Positions 3,420 through 22,305 of a DNA stretch of 29,719 nt are shown here, one piece after another. Under the pieces are notes generated by a model. The model searched no databases. It was not told where the DNA came from and was given only the letters and a program-made list of their open reading frames with translations. This DNA is from a virus. The position numbers and the translations under genes are program-made. Numbering within the stretch: position 1 is the stretch's first letter; every line of letters begins with the position of its first letter. The DNA lies in the IMG/VR virus record IMGVR_UViG_3300017739_000067, positions 1-29,719 of that record; one strand, 5' to 3'.

Positions 3420-4973
3420 TTAATATCCAAACGTAGAGTCTGCCATTGGCATACTGCTACTAGGTCTGCCCATAGGGTCGTAATCAAATATACTAAACCT
3501 TGGTCTTGACATTATACCATATCTTAGTGCATCATACAAGTGATCTTCTGATCTTGTGTCTACATCTTCAGGATTTCTTTTATCCAATGGTAACGCAGGT
3601 AATTGTGATATTGTATTAGTACAAGTATTAAAAAATACAAGTCTAGGTTCTTCTGTAAACTCATCTACCTGCAATCGTCTGTGTATTTCATTCTTACCTG
3701 ATACACGACTGCCTTTACTTCTATCTGAAGGTCTCCAACGACAACCTTTCATAATCATTTGTTCAGCCAAAGAAGGTCCTGTGTCTCCACGTTTATGCCA
3801 TAACGAACTATCTAAGACACCATACTTTATATTGCCATCATCAGATTCAACATCTAGTATCATATCTGCCAAATCTGTGGCAAGGACTTTAGAAGTGTAC
3901 AACTCTCTATATACAATAATCTGTTCATCTGGAGAAACAGCAAACCACAACACACCACTATAAGAGCCATAACCGTAATCACATGCCCTAAATTTAACCC
4001 AATTTCTTGGAATTGAAAAAGGCTCAACAACGTGAATATTCCTATCAAACTCAGTGAAAGCAGCACCTTCTTTAATATCCCAATCACCTTCAAGCAACTG
4101 TTTACGTTGGTGTTCAGGTAAGGAAAGAAGCATTGCTTCATAGTCACCTTGCTCTGCGAGATAAGGGTTGTCTGATAATCTCGCAGGTATAAATCTTCTT
4201 TTAAATAACGCTTGTCCTTCTTTACTGTGTCCTTTTGGATAGGCAAGAACATTACCTGACTCAATATCTGTGGCATCAAAACTTCTTCCGTATGGTGCAG
4301 GGTCAATAAACATTTTCTTAACCCACTGATGACCCGGACCTCCCGGGTTTGTTGTTGCTCTCATATACACAGGTAAATCATGTGCAGTAGAACGCAAACG
4401 TGAACGCATATAGTTCCAAGCATACGGAGTAGACCATTGGGTTAACTCGTCAAACCCTATCCAACTAAATGCCAAACCTTGATAACGAAGTACATCATCG
4501 TCACGGTCTAAGTATGACATCCATAACCTTGCACCTGATGGTGCTTCCCATTGCATCTTTCTTTCTGACCACTTAATACCCTTCCATATTTGAGGATATA
4601 TTTCCTTAGATTTAAATATAAGTTCTCTAAGTTCTTCTGTTGTATGTCTTAATAGTAATCCACTAAAGGATGGATGACCCATGTAACGTAAGGGGTCTGC
4701 TAACATGGCATATGACTTACCACCACCAGCACTTCCACCATATAAAACTTCTCTCTCACCTGCTGCAAGGAACTCTGTTTGAGGTCCTACATTAGGTTTA
4801 AATATTACATTGTGTTCTTCTACAGGTACTGCTTCTACATCTGCAACTTCCTGTATCTTAGGCTCTTGCACCTGTTCTTTCTTCTTCGATGGCTTTCGCT
4901 TTCTCGATTGCTTTCTCGGCATAAGATGCCCACTTTCGGAGAGTTCTAGCTTGGTTCTTACGTTGTTTTTCAT
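3420..4973 (-). CDS. terL: Terminase large subunit (TerL)
   Basis: The DNA-packaging motor: an N-terminal ATPase and C-terminal nuclease that translocate and cut DNA at the portal. Numbered from the first ATG, a Walker A motif GGSAGGGKS lies at about residues 79-87, a Walker B ending in DE at about 175-176 (FSWIGFDEL), and a coupling motif ATTNPGG at about 206-212. The nuclease half shows acidic positions in RACDYGYG, VLDSSLW and DHLYDALRYG. Length 517 is normal for the family. The start is uncertain: the ATG at 4973 overlaps the upstream gene by 116 nt and has GAGGA about 13 nt before it. The ATG at 4922 (MPRKQSRKR) overlaps by 65 nt but lacks a clear ribosome site. The first 50 residues are very basic either way. 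Confidence 0.95.
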   Translation of the reverse strand: MKNNVRTKLELSESGHLMPRKQSRKRKPSKKKEQVQEPKIQEVADVEAVPVEEHNVIFKPNVGPQTEFLAAGEREVLYGGSAGGGKSYAMLADPLRYMGHPSFSGLLLRHTTEELRELIFKSKEIYPQIWKGIKWSERKMQWEAPSGARLWMSYLDRDDDVLRYQGLAFSWIGFDELTQWSTPYAWNYMRSRLRSTAHDLPVYMRATTNPGGPGHQWVKKMFIDPAPYGRSFDATDIESGNVLAYPKGHSKEGQALFKRRFIPARLSDNPYLAEQGDYEAMLLSLPEHQRKQLLEGDWDIKEGAAFTEFDRNIHVVEPFSIPRNWVKFRACDYGYGSYSGVLWFAVSPDEQIIVYRELYTSKVLATDLADMILDVESDDGNIKYGVLDSSLWHKRGDTGPSLAEQMIMKGCRWRPSDRSKGSRVSGKNEIHRRLQVDEFTEEPRLVFFNTCTNTISQLPALPLDKRNPEDVDTRSEDHLYDALRYGIMSRPRFSIFDYDPMGRPSSSMPMADSTFGY

Positions 4974-6149: not shown

Positions 6150-6178
6150 ATTATACCAAATATTTTTAAAAATGTCAA
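6150..6178 (-). promoter_or_regulatory. Consensus sigma70 promoter before lysozyme (leftward)
   Basis: On the minus strand TTGACA (6178-6173) and TATAAT (6155-6150) are separated by exactly 17 nt, a perfect match to the bacterial sigma70 consensus. Transcription would begin near 6143 and run through lysozyme, terS, the HTH gene, terL and portal. It lies in the only sizeable gap of the late arm (6079-6189). Confidence 0.85.
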
Positions 6179-6895: not shown

Positions 6896-7156
6896 TTAGC
6901 TGAATCTACGAAATCTTGATGTTTTTTTTGCAATCTTTTTGGACTGTTTAGATACTTGTTTACCTGCTCTAGTCGCTTTGCGTTTAGCAGCCGTAGACGC
7001 GGCATATTCACTGGGACTAAGAGCCTTAATTGCTTTTTCAGGTAAATAACGTTCACCAGTTGCTTTTGACCCTTGTGTACTAGGTTTGCCTGACTTGGTT
7101 CTCCATTTTTGTTTTGTCCACGCAACTAATGACCTTTGTCCTTTTTTAAGTGCCAT
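6896..7156 (-). CDS. Small basic conserved phage protein
   Basis: An 86-residue, strongly basic protein with a distinctive conserved core: SLVAWTKQKWRTKSGK, GERYLPEKAIKALSPSEYAA, then a Lys/Arg-rich tail. I recall close relatives in many marine podo- and myophages, always uncharacterised. It lies between the DUF1289-like gene (31-nt overlap) and the holin (47-nt gap). The composition would fit nucleic-acid binding or packaging with DNA in the virion, but no catalytic motif is visible. Confidence 0.8.
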   Translation of the reverse strand: MALKKGQRSLVAWTKQKWRTKSGKPSTQGSKATGERYLPEKAIKALSPSEYAASTAAKRKATRAGKQVSKQSKKIAKKTSRFRRFS

Positions 7157-7257
7157 GCCTGTTCAATCTCTTCCATAGTTCTCTTGCATCCTATACAAAT
7201 GTTATCTTTAAGTTTACATACACCAATACAAGGTGACTCTAAAACTTTCCCATCCAT
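7126..7257 (-). CDS. DUF1289-like small Cys4 protein (putative Fe-S/metal binding)
   Basis: A 43-residue protein beginning MDGKVLESPCIGVCKLKDN, followed by ICIGCKRTMEEIEQAW. This is the DUF1289 signature: SPCIGVC, a short charged spacer, CxGCxRTxEEI and a Trp. Four cysteines lie at positions 10, 14, 21 and 24. DUF1289 proteins are small bacterial proteins often labelled predicted Fe-S proteins; their function is not established. The gene overlaps the 3' end of the upstream coiled-coil/TM gene by 19 nt and the 5' end of the basic protein gene downstream by 31 nt, and it covers the otherwise empty stretch 7157-7238. No strong ribosome site precedes the ATG, so translational coupling is likely. 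Confidence 0.8.
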   Translation of the reverse strand: MDGKVLESPCIGVCKLKDNICIGCKRTMEEIEQAWHLKKDKGH

Positions 7258-7679
7258 TTGCCAACAATCCAAGCTAATAATCCTGCAAAGAATAATACGA
7301 ATATAAAAGCTATACTATAACCAAAATATTCCATTAACTCTGCTTGTCTTCTTTCTCTCATCTTCTCTTGATAACGTCTAGACTTTCTTGCTTCTGCTTG
7401 GAACTGTTGCCAATCTTGCCACAGTCCGGGTCTGCCTAGATAAATCATTATCTTCTTGAGTTCTTCTTCTTTTTCTCTTATCTGCTCAAGAGCCATGAAC
7501 TCTTCTAAATCTGCACCACCACCACCTGCTTTTTTCTTACTTGCTTTTTTTTCTAGTTGTTCTTTTGAGAATACAAAATCAGATATTTGTTTAGCACAAC
7601 CTGTAAGTTCTTTACCATTAGATACAAAATTTTTTATTACACTAAAGGCTGCGTTTGCTGCTGCAAGTTCTGCTAACAT
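7239..7679 (-). CDS. Conserved phage protein with coiled coil and C-terminal membrane anchor
   Basis: A 146-residue protein. The N-terminal 35 residues are Ala-rich and hydrophobic (MLAELAAANAAFSVIKNF). A Lys-rich linker and a Gly tract (AGGGG) follow, then a long charged helix DLEEFMALEQIREKEEELKK, a conserved segment IYLGRPGLWQDWQQFQAEA, an Arg/Glu helix, and a single membrane segment at about 122-141 near the C-terminus. I recall this order in uncharacterised proteins of marine phages. The architecture (charged helix plus anchor, close to holin and lysozyme) would allow a role in envelope disruption or as an inner-membrane partner. That is inference. AAGGAA precedes the start. Confidence 0.75.
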   Translation of the reverse strand: MLAELAAANAAFSVIKNFVSNGKELTGCAKQISDFVFSKEQLEKKASKKKAGGGGADLEEFMALEQIREKEEELKKIMIYLGRPGLWQDWQQFQAEARKSRRYQEKMRERRQAELMEYFGYSIAFIFVLFFAGLLAWIVGKWMGKF

Positions 7680-8022: not shown

Positions 8023-8205
8023 TTATCTTTTCCTTCTTGGCTTACAGTATGCTGTTATTTTTAGATTGGGTCCTTCTAGTTTTGGGATTGAAGGTTGCCT
8101 ATGTAGCCTTTCGGCAAAGTATAAACATCTATCTATATCATCAAAGGTTTGTGTTTGGTCTACTACTCTTAATCCCATCATAAACACAAGCACAAATTCA
8201 ATCAT
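8023..8205 (-). CDS. Small conserved protein with N-terminal hydrophobic segment
   Basis: A 60-residue protein starting at the ATG at 8205 (AGAAAGG just upstream; a GTG one codon earlier is less likely). The first 12 residues, MIEFVLVFMMGL, are hydrophobic and could be a short membrane or signal-type segment. A conserved-looking body follows: FDDIDRCLYFAERLHRQP and then LKITAYCKPRRKR. It overlaps the stop of the Cys-rich microprotein gene by 8 nt. I recall similar short proteins in marine podophages, but function is unknown. Confidence 0.7.
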   Translation of the reverse strand: MIEFVLVFMMGLRVVDQTQTFDDIDRCLYFAERLHRQPSIPKLEGPNLKITAYCKPRRKR

Positions 8206-8311
8206 CACCTTTCTCTGCTACTTGTTCATCGTGACAGTCACAATTGCATTCATTACAATCGCAATCATAACATTCACAAGTCTCACATCTATTTTTTCTT
8301 TTTTCGTTCAT
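8198..8311 (-). CDS. Metallothionein-like Cys-rich microprotein
   Basis: A 37-residue peptide that starts MNEKRKN, then has eight cysteines in 18 residues with spacing CxxCxCxxCxCxxCxCxC followed by His, and ends in a charged tail. CxC and CxxC pairs separated mainly by Asp, Glu and Asn are the hallmark of metallothioneins and other metal-thiolate cluster peptides. An AGAAGG ribosome site lies 5 nt before the ATG. The gene overlaps its upstream neighbour by 23 nt and its downstream neighbour by 8 nt, and it fills a gap of 83 nt that neither covers. Binding of Zn, Cu, Cd or Fe is inferred from composition; I know of no named family it belongs to. A chance Cys-rich frame is possible but unlikely given the ribosome site and fit. 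Confidence 0.75.
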   Translation of the reverse strand: MNEKRKNRCETCECYDCDCNECNCDCHDEQVAEKGDD

Positions 8312-8579
8312 GTGCCTTCTTTAATTGTTCTTTTGCTTTTTTCGCAAGGGCTGCTTGCTCTTTCTTCCCAGATACCTTGGCTCGTTGTTCAAGGACTGTA
8401 AGTATCTGTATTTTCCTAGCATACGGTTTCTTAATCTTTTTAACTTTAGATATTGTAGCTTTAGCATCCGATACGGTAGCAAACTTAATGCTAACAGTGT
8501 CTTTTGGATTTTCATCAGTATATAGCCTTCTGTCTGAACCTTTAGGTTTTTTACCTGTGCCTACTTTAGGGTCTGCCAT
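8289..8579 (-). CDS. Small basic conserved phage protein
   Basis: A 96-residue, Lys-rich protein with a conserved-looking core GSDRRLYTDENPKDTVSIKF, then ATVSDAKATISKVKKI and ARKIQILTVLEQRA, ending in a long Lys/Ala helix and four lysines. I recall this pattern from uncharacterised proteins of marine phages. It starts at the stop of the DUF5872-like gene. The high positive charge fits DNA or RNA binding inside the virion or cell, but no function is known. Confidence 0.78.
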   Translation of the reverse strand: MADPKVGTGKKPKGSDRRLYTDENPKDTVSIKFATVSDAKATISKVKKIKKPYARKIQILTVLEQRAKVSGKKEQAALAKKAKEQLKKAHERKKKK

Positions 8580-8872
8580 TATCCTCGATATCCACCACCT
8601 GCAGCTTTATAAGCCTTTGCAGTCATCTGAGCTTTTCTTGCAGACCATTGTCCGGGAGCACCACCTTTGCCACCTGCTTTAATACGATTGAATATTCTTT
8701 TACGCATTTCAGGTTTAGTATAGTTACCTGCTTTATTTACTGTACTACCACCACTTTTTAGTTTAAGTGCAGATAAAGACTTAGCTTGTCCTGCATGTGC
8801 CTTACTAGCTTTCTTTAATTTACTTACTACTTTTTTTATTACTTTTTTTACTTTTGGTTTTGCTGTTCGCAT
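8579..8872 (-). CDS. DUF5872-like basic protein
   Basis: A 97-residue protein; the ATG at 8872 is chosen because GAGG sits 7 nt before it, while the in-frame ATG at 8884 has none. The N-terminal half is Lys/Ala-rich and disordered-looking. The C-terminal half carries KRIFNRIKAGGKGGAPGQWS followed by ARKAQMTAKAYKAAGGGY, a widespread phage motif that I believe is the DUF5872 domain. Its function is unknown. It overlaps the end of the preceding 236-residue protein gene by 53 nt. Confidence 0.8.
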   Translation of the reverse strand: MRTAKPKVKKVIKKVVSKLKKASKAHAGQAKSLSALKLKSGGSTVNKAGNYTKPEMRKRIFNRIKAGGKGGAPGQWSARKAQMTAKAYKAAGGGYRG

Positions 8873-9530
8873 CTCTATCCTCATATAGATTATTAAACGT
8901 AGTAAATGGGTCTAGGTAAGATTCATGTGACTCTGCTGAATGTAACCATTGTGATGGTGCAAAATCAGGAGCACCTTCTCCTGTAACCCATAGAGCAGGA
9001 CTTGTAGCTCTTACTCTGTTATTTGGCAGTGCAACAATATTGCCTGTCCATTTTCCTGCATCCAACAAATACATTACATGTGACTGTTTATGTTGTGCAG
9101 GGTCATCTGCTATGTCATGGTCTGTATAGTCAACCGTGAACATATACTTAGCTGTATAGAACTCATTAGCTATTTTACATAGCCACGGACTAGAACTAAC
9201 TCTATCCATAACTATGACACTATGATGTCTTGACTCGCAATCCCAAGGTTGACACAAATGGTCTTCCATTGGTTCTGCCCACTCATCTACAGGTATATCG
9301 GCTACTAGTGCTTGTATAGGCATTCTTGCCCACATTGCACCACCGTGTACATTTTCTTCTTCTGTACAACCTGTGAAGACTACCTGAAAACTTAATGACC
9401 TGTCAGGTATGGTGTTAACTGCGAAAGCTAGTGCGTGTAGGTATTCACCGTGATAATTCATATGATTACAAGTGAACTCCTTACGTACCCAACATTTAAA
9501 ATGTGGTACGTTACTTATAAGGTACGACAT
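8820..9530 (-). CDS. Conserved hypothetical protein, possible virion protein
   Basis: A 236-residue protein rich in Trp, His and Cys (for example HFKCWVRKEFTCNHMNYHGEY and PWDCESRHHSVIVMDRV). It has predicted beta strands through most of its length and a basic Ser/Lys tail (SKTKSKKSNKKSSK). It begins on the TAATG of the LysM gene. Similar proteins with HGGAMWARMPIQALVAD-type segments are, as I recall, found in marine phage structural regions. The function cannot be read from the sequence; the His/Cys content could mean metal sites or a globular virion protein. Confidence 0.72.
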   Translation of the reverse strand: MSYLISNVPHFKCWVRKEFTCNHMNYHGEYLHALAFAVNTIPDRSLSFQVVFTGCTEEENVHGGAMWARMPIQALVADIPVDEWAEPMEDHLCQPWDCESRHHSVIVMDRVSSSPWLCKIANEFYTAKYMFTVDYTDHDIADDPAQHKQSHVMYLLDAGKWTGNIVALPNNRVRATSPALWVTGEGAPDFAPSQWLHSAESHESYLDPFTTFNNLYEDRDANSKTKSKKSNKKSSK

Positions 9531-11554: not shown

Positions 11555-11626
11555 CATTTAAGTGTTTCATATAAGTGTATTAATCATATTTAACTAATTA
11601 TCATTTATATGTATCATTTAAGTGTT
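11555..11626. repeat. 12-bp direct repeat in the late-operon leader
   Basis: The 12-mer CATTTAAGTGTT occurs at 11555-11566 and again at 11615-11626, exactly 60 bp apart. Both copies lie between the leftward promoter and the first late gene, so they would be in its 5' leader. They could be protein-binding sites or RNA elements; AT-rich coincidence is a weaker explanation for an exact 12-mer this close. Confidence 0.5.
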
Positions 11627-11637
11627 AGTTATACATA

Positions 11638-11666
11638 ATTATAATCGATTTCAGTAATCTTGTCAA
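11638..11666 (-). promoter_or_regulatory. Consensus sigma70 promoter for the leftward late arm
   Basis: On the minus strand TTGACA (11666-11661) is followed after 17 nt by TATAAT (11643-11638), a perfect sigma70 consensus. The start site would be near 11631, giving a leader of about 120 nt before the first late gene at 11512. It is oriented away from the right-arm promoters, defining a divergent control region. Confidence 0.85.
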
Positions 11667-12396
11667 GTACAAATATTTTTATTTATGTGTATTTCTGCTG
11701 CTGTGTGGCAAAAATGCTACATTTTACTAGTTTTACCTGTATTCAACAGTTGTATTAGTGGTTAACACTCTAATTTTCCCATCTGTGTAGTTCTCCAAGC
11801 ACGTATACGTACACCCCCCATATGACGCCTGCCTGTATACCCTTGTATTCTATCATTTTTCCTAGTTTCAAATAAAAAATACCTTCAAAGCCTTGAAAAC
11901 TCTACATTTTTTATGCTTCACTTTAGCTAAGTCATTGATTTTACTACCTTTTATATGCATTAGTAAACTGATTATCTAACAGTTACCCTTTAAACTGTAT
12001 CAAATAACTACCTAACCCCTTGTTTTTACTGCATAATATACCCCTGTGAGTATAAAACCTTTTTTTTGTATAGTATAGTATCAACTAATCAACTAAAATA
12101 ATTCAAATAAAATATCCAATAAAAACAATCACTTAACAAATTAATTCAAATTATTTCACTTTTTTTTAATTATTCGCTTTACATCTACGTTCTTTTTTGC
12201 AATACTTCAAAACATCAGAAGGGCAATAGCTTTTCAGATAGTAGCAAAAAGAAAGTTTTTAGTTTGAGAAAAGCGATCTTTTAATAAGCAAGTAAAATGT
12301 TAGTCTTATTAATCGCATCAAAACAAAAGAAAAAGTTTCTAGTTTTAAGACAACCGTTATAATAACAACCTTCTTAAAACATTTTTAAAAAACTAC
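11667..12396. other. AT-rich non-coding control region
   Basis: About 730 nt without a credible coding frame. Visible elements are a 10-bp perfect palindrome ACGTATACGT at 11801-11810 next to a C run, several homopolymer T/A tracts (12060-12070, 12160-12170), a long bulged hairpin at 12273-12316, and a repeated core AAGTTTYTAGTTT at 12253-12265 and 12333-12345, 80 bp apart. Repeats and hairpins in AT-rich DNA between divergent arms would suit a replication origin or regulator-binding sites. There is no direct evidence for either. Confidence 0.6.
12273..12316 (+). other. Bulged 12-bp hairpin upstream of the ncRNA promoter
   Basis: GCGAT (12273-12277) pairs with ATCGC (12312-12316), and TAATAAG (12282-12288) pairs with CTTATTA (12305-12311). 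A 4-nt bulge on one side and a 16-nt loop complete the structure. No long T run follows on either strand, so it is not a standard terminator. It could be a cruciform/origin element or part of a longer transcript. Confidence 0.5.
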
Positions 12397-12425
12397 TTGA
12401 CGGATAAAAAGAAATTTGCTCTAAT
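12397..12425 (+). promoter_or_regulatory. Sigma70-like promoter of the structured RNA
   Basis: TTGACG (12397-12402) and TCTAAT (12420-12425) are 17 nt apart, 10 of 12 consensus positions. The predicted start at about 12432 falls just where base composition and hairpin density change to those of the RNA-like tract. Overlapping AT-rich hexamers make the exact -10 uncertain. Confidence 0.6.
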
Positions 12426-12431
12426 GATAAT

Positions 12432-12851
12432 GCGAAAAACGAAAAGAGAAACGACAACTCTATAAAATGGTGCTGAGTGCAGACTTAAAGTAAACTAAAC
12501 CTATCAAGGGCAAATTCCCTAAATACGATAGATGCGAATGCTTACCCTAAATGTGGGCAAGACATGGGCTAACTAGGTGTGCCAAAATAGTGGTAACCTT
12601 CTAGACTAAACAAGTGCCAAGTAACAGGCTTGTGGAATATGGGAGAAGTGCGACTACAGAAATCCTAGGGTGGTCAATGGTAAGTGGGCGAGAAATTAAA
12701 AGAGACTAGTTTTGTGTGTTGTCTAGTCTGCCTTCCCTTAATAACTTGATCAAGTGGGAATCAAAGCGAAAGCAAGGAAAAATCTACACTACTAGATTAA
12801 GTGAAAAGTTAGCTATGAGTTTAAGTGAAAAACACTTGGGTTGTATAACTA
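12432..12851 (+). ncRNA. Candidate large structured non-coding RNA, about 420 nt
   Basis: The tract has no open reading frame and is distinctly more GC-rich than the flank (hand counts of 35-45% in successive 60-nt lines, against about 17% in the line from 12061). It has its own promoter. Local helices: CTATC/GATAG (12501-12505/12527-12531) enclosing AGGG/CCCT; CTG/CAG (12474-12476/12480-12482); ACAAG/CTTGT (12610-12614/12629-12633) continued by CC/GG; AGACTAG/CTAGTCT (12703-12709/12723-12729). A three-way junction is closed by CCTT/AAGG (12731-12734/12774-12777); it contains a CCC/GGG plus ACTT/AAGT arm and a GCGAAAGC tetraloop hairpin (12766-12773). Further helices are AATCTA/TAGATT (12781-12786/12793-12798) and AGTTA/TAACT (12807-12811/12846-12850) enclosing AAGTG/CACTT. 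ACCCTA (12544-12549) could pair with TAGGGT (12666-12671). Not recognised as tmRNA, RNase P RNA or group I intron. Size and setting recall large phage RNAs such as GOLLD or ROOL, but no homology is claimed. Confidence 0.7.
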
Positions 12852-12909
12852 AAATAAATACCTAATCGTATCAAGATATATACGTCACTTAATTGAATTT
12901 TATTTTAAT

Positions 12910-12937
12910 TTGACATTGTGTTATTAAAGGGTATAAT
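12910..12937 (+). promoter_or_regulatory. Consensus sigma70 promoter for the rightward early arm
   Basis: TTGACA (12910-12915), 16-nt spacer, TATAAT (12932-12937): both hexamers are perfect. The -10 box lies in the loop of an inverted repeat AAGGG/CCCTT (12927-12931/12939-12943), a possible operator or early hairpin. Transcription starting near 12944 leaves a leader of about 30 nt with AGGAGA before the first gene. Confidence 0.88.
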
Positions 12938-12974
12938 GCCCTTAACTTAACAACCATTCACAGGAGAATGCAAC

Positions 12975-19715: not shown

Positions 19716-20591
19716 ATGAATAGAGATAAAGCTATAGGTATGCTAGTAGGACTAGCTGTAGGAGATGCCCTTGGAGCATTCCTTGAATTTAAAAAGCCAC
19801 GTACCCCTAAAAATTATATAACTAGATATAAAAAAGGTGGTACGCATGATGTATCCATTGGAGAATGGACAGACGATACAAGCATGGCACTAGCTATGGC
19901 AAAGTCTCTACTAGAGAAAAATACATTTGATGCGAATGATATTATGCAAAAGTTTTGTAAGTGGTACAAGGATGGAGAGTATAGTCCAAGAGGAGAATGC
20001 TTTGACATAGGTGGTACTACTGCAGTAGCATTAAATAGTTATCTAAATGAATTAGAAGACTCTGATTATCTACAACCTTACAGAGGTAGAACTGCAGAAG
20101 ATTCATCAGGTAATGGAGCATTGATGAGACTTGCACCTACTATCATAGTTGCTAAAAACAAATATCATGCCATGCAATTAGCTACACAACAAACTTTATT
20201 AACACATGGTAGCAATACCTGTGTGGATTACTCTATAATGTTAGCTGAAGAATTATATCATGGCTATCCTATAGCTAGATATGACAGCTATAAGTTACCA
20301 CTAGACACACCTAGAGAAAAAGTCCTGTCAGGTGGATATGTAAAAGAAACTTACCAATGTGCATGGTGGGCATTTCAGACAACAAATACCTTTGAGGATT
20401 GTGTTATCAAGGCAGTCAACAGAGGATATGATGCAGATACATCAGGTGCAGTAGCAGGAATGATTGCAGGTAGATATTATGGTCATAGTAAAATACCTAC
20501 ACATTTTAAACAAGGTTTAATGTGGCATGGCGAGTTGTTTATGACTGCCTTAGATTTATGTGCAATGGAGTATAAAGATGCAGAACATTAA
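19716..20591 (+). CDS. ADP-ribosylglycohydrolase (DraG-like)
   Basis: A 291-residue protein of the ADP-ribosyl-hydrolase fold, which removes ADP-ribose from proteins or other targets using two Mg ions. Metal-site motifs are intact: GDALGAFLEF at 16-25, EWTDDTSMAL at 50-59 (Thr52, Asp53, Asp54), SGNGALMRLAP at 131-141, THG at 163-165, and NRGYDADTSGAVAGMIAG at 235-252 (Asp239, Asp241, Thr242). Length is normal for the family. It has its own promoter-like sequence and AAAGGAG site, and overlaps the recombinase gene by 14 nt. A phage copy could undo ADP-ribosylation used by host toxins or defence systems, or modify host proteins; the substrate cannot be told from the sequence. Confidence 0.92.
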   Translation: MNRDKAIGMLVGLAVGDALGAFLEFKKPRTPKNYITRYKKGGTHDVSIGEWTDDTSMALAMAKSLLEKNTFDANDIMQKFCKWYKDGEYSPRGECFDIGGTTAVALNSYLNELEDSDYLQPYRGRTAEDSSGNGALMRLAPTIIVAKNKYHAMQLATQQTLLTHGSNTCVDYSIMLAEELYHGYPIARYDSYKLPLDTPREKVLSGGYVKETYQCAWWAFQTTNTFEDCVIKAVNRGYDADTSGAVAGMIAGRYYGHSKIPTHFKQGLMWHGELFMTALDLCAMEYKDAEH

Positions 20592-21486
20592 AAACTTAAC
20601 AGACCTAGTAGATGAATATTATTTGTCTAGTGATTACAATATGTTAGCAGATAAAACTAAAGTAGATTATCAATACTTTTTAGGTGTCATGTTAGACACA
20701 TCTGTAGACAGTAAAAAATTGTCAACAAATAAATTGAAAAATTTATCAGGTGCAAAGGCAAGACGAGCATATGAAGTGTGGCTAAAACGTGGTATCTTTA
20801 TGGCTAATCATATTTGCTCTGTAGCAAGAAAGTTATTTTCATTTGCTATGGAGATGGGATATGCTGAAACGAATCCATTTGCTACTTTCAGACGAAAACC
20901 AACCCAACTTAGAAAGGTTGTGTGGACAAAAGAACAGGTATGTCAATTTCTTGACTACTCCTACAGCGATTTTAAGTACAGAAACATAGGATTAATTGTA
21001 CAAATGGCATATGAATGGTGTCAGAGAGTAGGAGATATGAGAACATTAGAGTTTTCTAGTGTAGATTTTGATAATAGTGTGTTAAATTTGCAACAGTCAA
21101 AGAGAAGAAGTGTAGTTCACTTGCCTATTTCAGTTGACTTATTAGAAATGCTTAAACAACAGAAAGATGAATATGGTTTTCAGTCTTATGTCGCACCATA
21201 CCCAACAGCGATTAGAGGTTCATACGAGCCATATTCTCTTACTAGGCTATCCAAAGTAGCAAGAAGGGTAATGAAGCTCTGTGGTCTTCCTGATGAGCTA
21301 AGAATAGCTGACTTAAGACGTACAGGTACTACAGAGATGGTCGAAGCAGGTGTGTCTATGGGTCAGATAATGTCTGTTACAGGTCATGCTAACCCCAATA
21401 GTGTGAAACCTTACATGAAAAATACGTATGCTAGTGCAGAAAATGCATTGACAACTAGAAAAAAGTATGCTATAAGCACAGGGTAA
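20578..21486 (+). CDS. int: Tyrosine recombinase / integrase
   Basis: A 302-residue tyrosine recombinase from the ATG at 20578 (GGAG 9 nt before). The N-terminal 100 residues are a SAM-like core-binding domain; the catalytic domain shows Arg150 (WCQRVGDMRTLEF), Lys175 (QQSKRRS), Arg247 (ADLRRTGTTE), His270 (VTGHANPNS) and Tyr279 (VKPYMKNT). The usual His of the HxxR box is Ala244. It should catalyse site-specific recombination between phage and host att sites or resolve genome multimers. No tRNA-like attachment site is visible nearby. Its presence suggests temperate capability, or descent from a temperate phage. Confidence 0.9.
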   Translation: MQNIKNLTDLVDEYYLSSDYNMLADKTKVDYQYFLGVMLDTSVDSKKLSTNKLKNLSGAKARRAYEVWLKRGIFMANHICSVARKLFSFAMEMGYAETNPFATFRRKPTQLRKVVWTKEQVCQFLDYSYSDFKYRNIGLIVQMAYEWCQRVGDMRTLEFSSVDFDNSVLNLQQSKRRSVVHLPISVDLLEMLKQQKDEYGFQSYVAPYPTAIRGSYEPYSLTRLSKVARRVMKLCGLPDELRIADLRRTGTTEMVEAGVSMGQIMSVTGHANPNSVKPYMKNTYASAENALTTRKKYAISTG

Positions 21487-21531
21487 GTGCCGAACAAAAG
21501 AATATTATATAACATATAAGTGAGATATACA

Positions 21532-22305
21532 ATGAATATATACAACTATGTAAATGATTTACAACTAAGTGTAGGAGAAAGTAAAAGACTTACTTGTCCT
21601 GTATGTAATGGTTATAAAACTTTTACAGCTACTAACAATATGGGTAAGTTGTTATGGAATTGTTATAAATCTACTTGTAAGATTTCAGGCTCTGCACGTG
21701 TGCATCTATCTGTAGATGATATACGTGATGCAATTACAGGTGACGTTCTAGACTTTGATAGAGAAGAATTTGTAATGCCTGAATACGTGGTGTCACATAA
21801 CCACAGGAGAGAAGTCATGGACTTTTGTGAACTGTGGGATTTAGATTGTGACAAATTGAATCTACACTACGATGTCAAGGACAAGCGAGTTGTATTTCCT
21901 GTCGAGCATGGCGATTATATTGTTGATGCAGTCGGTAGGTCAATAACTAGATTATTGCCTAAATGGAAAAGATATGGAAAAAGTAACTTGCCTTTTGTTC
22001 ATGGATGTGGTAGGGTAGCAGTTGTTGTTGAGGATTGTGTTAGTGCATCTGTGGTAGGTAGTGATGTATTAGTTGGGGTAGCTGTGTTGGGTACGTCATT
22101 GGCAGAGTCTCACAAGAAGTATCTCTCACGATTCTCAACAGCGATTATAGCACTCGATCCTGATGCCTTACCTAAGACACTATCGTTTGCAAAAGAATTA
22201 AGAGGATATGTACAAGACATTAAAATAATTAGATTGACAGATGATCTGAAATATCGTAATGAATCAGATATAGAAAAATTATTAACCCTAACCCCAAAGG
22301 AGTAA
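21532..22305 (+). CDS. DNA primase (T7 gp4-type, primase half)
   Basis: A 257-residue primase that would make RNA primers at the fork. It has a zinc-binding site with Cys22, Cys25, Cys44 and Cys49 (CPVC and NCYKSTC) and a TOPRIM fold with Glu167 (VVVEDCVSAS) and Asp209/Asp211 (ALDPDA), spaced as in the T7 primase. The helicase half is not fused but encoded by the next gene. The ATG at 21532 is preferred; a GTG at 21520 in the same frame is an alternative, and neither has a strong ribosome site. Confidence 0.9.
   Translation: MNIYNYVNDLQLSVGESKRLTCPVCNGYKTFTATNNMGKLLWNCYKSTCKISGSARVHLSVDDIRDAITGDVLDFDREEFVMPEYVVSHNHRREVMDFCELWDLDCDKLNLHYDVKDKRVVFPVEHGDYIVDAVGRSITRLLPKWKRYGKSNLPFVHGCGRVAVVVEDCVSASVVGSDVLVGVAVLGTSLAESHKKYLSRFSTAIIALDPDALPKTLSFAKELRGYVQDIKIIRLTDDLKYRNESDIEKLLTLTPKE

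Follow-up and report, generated by a model that had tools for sequence, protein, structure and literature searches.

The analysis concerns a stretch of viral DNA, referred to as the window, that comprises 29,719 bases and is a virus record in IMG/VR. On its minus strand, at 8198–8311 (stop codon included), lies gene C, an open reading frame that encodes a Cys-rich microprotein of 37 aa. Translation of 8311–8198 on this strand gives MNEKRKNRCETCECYDCDCNECNCDCHDEQVAEKGDD, in which the array CxxCxCxxCxCxxCxCxC places eight Cys within 18 residues and is followed by His; Cys makes up 22% of the peptide (8 Cys in 37 aa), in CxC and CxxC arrays. The initial annotation, made from the sequence alone, had described this array and the His after it, and its coordinates, strand and peptide were all borne out. 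Pattern and alignments delimit a core, CETCECYDCDCNECNCDCH (8231–8287, minus strand), with seven fixed Cys, an optional fifth Cys and a fixed His, and the net charge of this core lies between -3 and -8 across members, most commonly at -7. The seven-Cys DNA pattern has a single occurrence in the window and was found in 0 of 100 dinucleotide shuffles. The AlphaFold2 model of C carries no confidence as a fold (pLDDT 68, pTM 0.32). C overlaps its upstream gene X by 23 nt and its downstream gene Y by 11 or 8 nt, depending on whether GTG or ATG is taken as the start, as the slight overlaps noted earlier on both sides had indicated, and the overlap with X suggests translational coupling of the two. 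Shine-Dalgarno sequences are usually 5–9 nt from the start codon. A Shine-Dalgarno-like AGAAGG is indeed present before C (8315–8320, minus strand, as read from the sequence), but it ends just 3 nt before the ATG, and the earlier description of its spacing as correct was generous.

All genes adjoining C are on the minus strand. Gene Y (8023–8208; 60–61 aa, two invariant Cys) is the constant downstream neighbour of C, and gene X (8289–8579; 96 aa, no known family) lies upstream of it here and is variable in relatives. Gene W (8579–8884; 101 aa, PHROG 17747) stands directly before C in other relatives, and in others again the gene upstream of the C-Y pair is a third one, for a phage lysozyme (PF00959; 5611–6078 in the window). 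Y has a predicted beta-beta-alpha-beta fold (pLDDT 92); a Foldseek search of this model against the PDB gave a best E of 2.0, from which no function was inferred, a search against viral models reached a small unnamed fold (best E 2.8e-3), and PHROG matches were weak (best 0.023) and gave no recognised function. The leftward operon that holds C is headed by an intergenic, perfect sigma-70 consensus promoter (TTGACA, 17 nt, TATAAT) at 11638–11666 on the minus strand, identified by consensus match only. It is one of three perfect sites of this kind in the window, all on the minus strand, against 0.01 expected by shuffling; of the other two, the one at 6150–6178 is intergenic and, again by consensus match only, would drive the lysozyme, and the one at 739–767 is inside a coding frame.

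Other features of the window were also recorded. A fourth perfect promoter pair, with 16-nt spacing, precedes the rightward operon (12910–12937, plus strand), and about 1.4 kb between the divergent operons (11571–12974) contains no ORF of 50 aa or more; this region may hold a replication origin or regulatory sites. The operon of C also encodes a DUF1289 protein (PF06945, E 1.3e-11; 7126–7272, minus strand) of 48 aa with four Cys, which is found near C-Y in several relatives too. An ADP-ribosylglycohydrolase (PF03747, E 1.3e-59; 19716–20591, plus strand) adjoins a tyrosine integrase at 20560–21486, and its possible role is the removal of ADP-ribose marks in infection or lysogeny. Scans of the window for tRNA genes and Rfam families found nothing.

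Relatives of C were collected from IMG/VR by two independent routes, namely searches with the neighbouring genes X and Y and pattern scans for the Cys motif. Merging of both routes gave at least 141 C copies with distinct local DNA, and this family size is a lower bound since the pattern scans gave at least 120 matches. The invariance seen in the motif scans is partly forced by the search pattern, and conservation was judged on the neighbour-fetched sets instead. The Y route covered the best 80 of 209 relatives, and 76 of these loci had sufficient upstream sequence; C was stop-free and in place in 73 of the 76, in which the Y genes are close to the window's own. Among 80 loci fetched with X, C was found directly after X in 17, and X ran straight into Y in two (L015 and L024). 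The Y-fetched set contained 45 distinct cores, selected by a loose Cys-array filter alone, and in all of them positions 1, 4, 6, 9, 14, 16 and 18 of the core are Cys, position 3 is Thr, position 7 is Tyr and position 19 is His. The sole varying Cys is the fifth (core position 11), which is replaced in 9 of the 45 distinct cores and, among the matches listed, in 30 of the 133 copies of the merged set with a readable end. Eleven different residues stand in for it, and at least 16 changes of state were counted on a tree of the adjacent Y gene, although this tree was built on 162 nt of a short and poorly resolved gene and may overcount changes. Since the fifth Cys is replaceable, the invariant set consists of seven Cys and one His. 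In agreement, the invariant columns of an alignment of 79 members that includes a diverged subfamily (alignment A2) are exactly C9, C12, C14, C17, C22, C24, C26 and H27. Members of the family are 29–50 aa long. Conservation of the Cys spacing in related phages had been proposed at the outset as a check on the peptide, and both spacing and frame are kept, but just seven of the eight Cys are fixed.

A comparison of dN/dS, proposed in the same place, was made on 64 distinct neighbour-fetched cores by pooling pairs that differ at 1–6 sites. It gave 0.055, which marks C as a gene under strong selection, and 0.060 on the codons that the finder left unforced. For the non-Cys codons of C the value was 0.087, versus 0.114 for gene Y by the same method, and the non-Cys codons are constrained like those of ordinary genes, beyond the need of a pure buffer. 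TGT and TGC swap freely at the Cys codons, which indicates that it is the peptide that is kept and not a string of DNA. That the reading frame is spurious, arising from low-complexity DNA or as a by-product of a gene on the other strand or in an overlapping frame, could be argued from a short imperfect 15-bp repeat inside C (score 45) and from an antisense frame that is open across it (8066–8401). Nevertheless, over 126 motif-selected cores the five other frames showed mostly non-synonymous changes or were closed in most members, and the sense frame is therefore the selected one; with its dN/dS of 0.055 and the persistence of C in the Y-fetched loci, the probability of a spurious frame is negligible. 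A chance ORF was likewise ruled out by the shuffles, these loci and the dN/dS value. C is a real, strongly preserved peptide gene of uncultured ocean phages.

The surroundings of C in relatives are constant on one side, where C nearly always overlaps Y, and variable on the other. Y directly follows C in 131 of the 137 copies with enough downstream sequence, 108 of them recognised by pattern and 23 by reading; in the latter, Y is in another frame or has a changed start, and that of L223 looks internally deleted. The six copies with no Y after them are those of L207 and L236 and four copies of the diverged subfamily. Upstream of C, W-X, W alone, V-X or lysozyme was found (141 copies). Clean absences of C do exist. 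In addition to L015 and L024, Y follows lysozyme with no C between them in three Y-fetched loci (L369, L370 and L372), and a further Y search, covering the best 80 of 449 relatives, gave six lysozyme-Y loci that lack C, three of which share contig names with those three.

Scanning with Tyr excluded from the motif yielded 22 stretches, of which four (L393, L402, L406 and L409) belong to the diverged subfamily, here termed subfamily 2, and the remainder are low-complexity or interrupted reads. The subfamily 2 peptide, MSQCEDCKCENCECxECECECHNEKTDED, is 29 aa long and is encoded directly after gene W. All eight Cys and the His are at the same positions as in the main family, and Thr and Tyr are lost; in L402 Asp and Glu stand in their place. 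Directly after the 29-aa C of L402 there is a second Cys peptide, MKKPTKTKNTFKPCAGCKTPTACRKANACLLGKKGIKHKH (ORF L402:3827–3967, with an ATG inside at 3845), and gp63 of Roseobacter phage CRP-1 (L413:1326–1493) has a similar CEGCxxxxxCxxxxxCL tail; the two possibly belong to another family of small metal-site peptides in marine phages. In L021 (6263–6406), L047, L016 and L056, C has been extended by overprinting, its C-terminal tail (HHNDRV...) being the DNA of the first part of Y read in another frame.

The terminase large subunit of the window is 81–87% identical to those of HMO-2011, CRP-1 and CRP-345 (81% to HMO-2011 over the full length; 87% to CRP-345 over 90%), and its DNA polymerase is 61–64% identical to those of the same three phages. 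Judged by these two proteins, the window phage is assigned to the HMO-2011-type marine phages. Gene W is shared with isolates of this type (HMO-2011, CRP-1, CRP-345, HTVC033P and others), and HMO-2011 has a Y-like gene as well. In HMO-2011, however, W runs directly into the Y-like gene with no Cys peptide, unlike the arrangement in the window. A profile of the A2 alignment matched none of the 15 isolate or near phage records searched, and the same profile found 4 of 4 positive controls, 10 of the 15 records having been in the same run as the controls.

In 84,980 bacterial and archaeal genomes, a scan with the motif that includes Tyr and His, which is blind to members with no Tyr or with other spacing, gave five stretches, none of which reads as a C member. 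An origin of C in bacteria or archaea was rejected on this basis, four of the five stretches reading as low-complexity Cys-rich or Arg-rich noise and the fifth (L385) showing no real ORF when read. A tblastn search of the peptide against phage records gave nothing useful, the low-complexity filter having probably masked the query, and blastn of the C DNA gave chance-level matches only. There were no matches in a PDB sequence search at E up to 10, and none by Foldseek with the poor model of C. Pfam, NCBIfam and PHROG gave no family match across the 79 members apart from isolated chance-level ones, each in 1 of 79. Among the literature matches listed, drawn mostly from the open literature, no report of a phage metallothionein was found: in the matched part of one paper the word occurs within a bacterial gene list (PMC3974807), the matched part of another does not mention cysteine, zinc or metal (PMC11323111), and no phage metallothionein is present in the term-matched passages of two more (PMC9038755, PMC12753301).

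What C does has to be read from its conserved residues. An odd number of fixed Cys together with a fixed His is the pattern of a metal site and not of disulfides, and C most likely binds metal, zinc for example. Eight invariant ligands are enough for two tetrahedral sites, of which one would be formed by C9, C12, C14 and C17 and the other by C22, C24, C26 and H27. The metal at both would most likely be Zn(II), with a Cu(I) cluster as the alternative. Cys19, the optional residue between the sites, would be dispensable because neither four-ligand site needs it, and where present it may fuse both into a larger cluster. In support of a metal site, the loss of Thr and Tyr in subfamily 2 has left its eight Cys and the His untouched. 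The best single reading of C, which we hold with about even confidence, is that of a small metal-thiolate peptide of the cytoplasm, acting in the manner of a minimal metallothionein. It would be made with the leftward operon through translational coupling to its neighbours, and would hold or buffer host zinc during infection, either supplying the zinc proteins of the phage or keeping the ion away. A zinc-ribbon-like CPVC motif was read at the start of the protein at 21520–22305, and a DnaJ-type CXXCXGXG match, below cut-off, lies inside the DNA polymerase; a phage that encodes likely zinc proteins makes a zinc-handling peptide plausible. Against the proposal, Pfam scans of 20 window proteins revealed neither a metal transporter nor a resistance gene, and AlphaFold2 gave C no confident fold; the least secure step is what the phage would gain. 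The invariant Thr and Tyr of the main subfamily, the strongly acidic core and the tight linkage to Y argue against a plain metal buffer.

These same features are what would be expected if C were a zinc-stabilised mini-domain that binds Y or some host protein as its partner, the metal having a structural role only; this is the strongest rival reading, although we consider it somewhat improbable. Contact would then be made through the acidic faces together with the invariant Thr and Tyr, a detail that we hold just as tentatively. Consistent with a partner, the non-Cys residues show the constraint of an ordinary protein, Y is nearly always retained directly after C while the upstream gene varies (X, W, V or lysozyme), Thr and Tyr are invariant in 45 unforced cores, and L402, in which they have become Asp and Glu, is the sole lineage with no Y on its contig (46 kb, searched with a Y profile). 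However, Y is highly conserved in the loci that lack C (L015, L024 and the lysozyme-Y loci), which indicates that Y does not need C, and in L207, whose 6 kb contig shows no Y, both Thr and Tyr are kept. In addition, the correlation of Thr and Tyr with Y comes from a single lineage.

A role for copper was also considered, in which C, akin to the small fungal copper metallothioneins, shields the infected cell from Cu(I) or scavenges it. Seven fixed Cys within 18 residues, plus an eighth that can be spared, would be compatible with a Cu(I)-thiolate cluster, in which the loss of a ligand is tolerated, but the invariant His and the grouping of ligands as four plus four suit Zn(II) better, and the Cys order is unlike that of the Neurospora peptide; we regard the copper reading as unlikely. 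Still less probable, to the point of being very doubtful, is the view of C as the precursor to a peptide that is either modified (RiPP-like) or disulfide-linked and is released at lysis. The very small size and Cys-richness of C are compatible with such a precursor, and one member of the 79 gives a match, at a chance-level E of 0.47, to a radical-SAM Cys-rich RiPP model; against it, the fixed Cys are odd in number, C has no hydrophobic leader and a radical SAM domain is absent among the 20 window proteins scanned.

Beyond the metal-thiolate reading of C itself, it may be speculated, with reservations that outweigh our confidence, that these peptides form a class of their own, exclusive to phages: minimal metal peptides with two sites (29–50 aa, seven Cys and one His), coupled to Y. 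With them, members of an abundant and largely uncultured group of marine phages would capture or redirect host zinc, or power a partner that depends on zinc, during infection. Such a metallothionein-like viral system would have no ancestor in cells that a motif search can detect. In the open ocean, growth is limited by trace metals, and to our knowledge viral control of host metal pools has hardly been studied. If C is a metal-site peptide, it offers a concrete, testable handle on such control, for which nature already supplies the comparisons, in variants with seven or eight Cys and in phages without C. It also illustrates that a gene of fewer than 40 codons can rank among the more constrained of a phage operon and yet be missing from Pfam, NCBIfam and PHROGs.

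Comparison with known metallothioneins gives a mixed picture. The label metallothionein-like, used in the initial annotation, is apt insofar as C is a selected Cys-rich gene with the ligand spacing typical of metal-thiolate peptides, but it finds no metallothionein match in PF02069, NCBIfam or PHROG. The roles suggested there, storage or buffering of Zn, Cu or Fe during lysis or protection against host metal stress, found no support in the data either. With PF02069, neither C of the window (at E up to 1) nor any of the 79 members gave a match, while an SmtA sequence used as positive control matched at 3.9e-21; membership of this prokaryotic metallothionein family was rejected on these grounds. 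By the broad description of metallothioneins, C is very small and rich in Cys, with CxC and CxxC arrays. Metallothioneins typically have few or no aromatic residues, and classical ones offset the thiolate charge with Lys. The core of C is acidic instead, and Tyr is invariant in its main subfamily, although subfamily 2 has none. The closest bacterial counterparts considered, SmtA and BmtA (PF02069), are small, Cys-rich cytoplasmic metal peptides that contain CxC as well as CxxC elements and one or more His, all of which we count as likenesses to C. They are about 55 aa long, versus 29–50 aa in the C family, and C differs from them in its acidic core, its invariant Tyr and its phage-only distribution in the searches made.

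The small fungal copper metallothioneins of the Neurospora type have about 25 residues and seven Cys in the order CxC-x5-CxC-x3-CxC-x2-C. The Neurospora peptide itself has no Pfam match, and Pfam is therefore silent on any relation to C. The order in C, CxxCxCxxC-x4-CxCxCH with an optional Cys in the gap, differs from that of the fungal peptide, which has no His, although the two are of about the same size and alike in carrying seven Cys in one short array.
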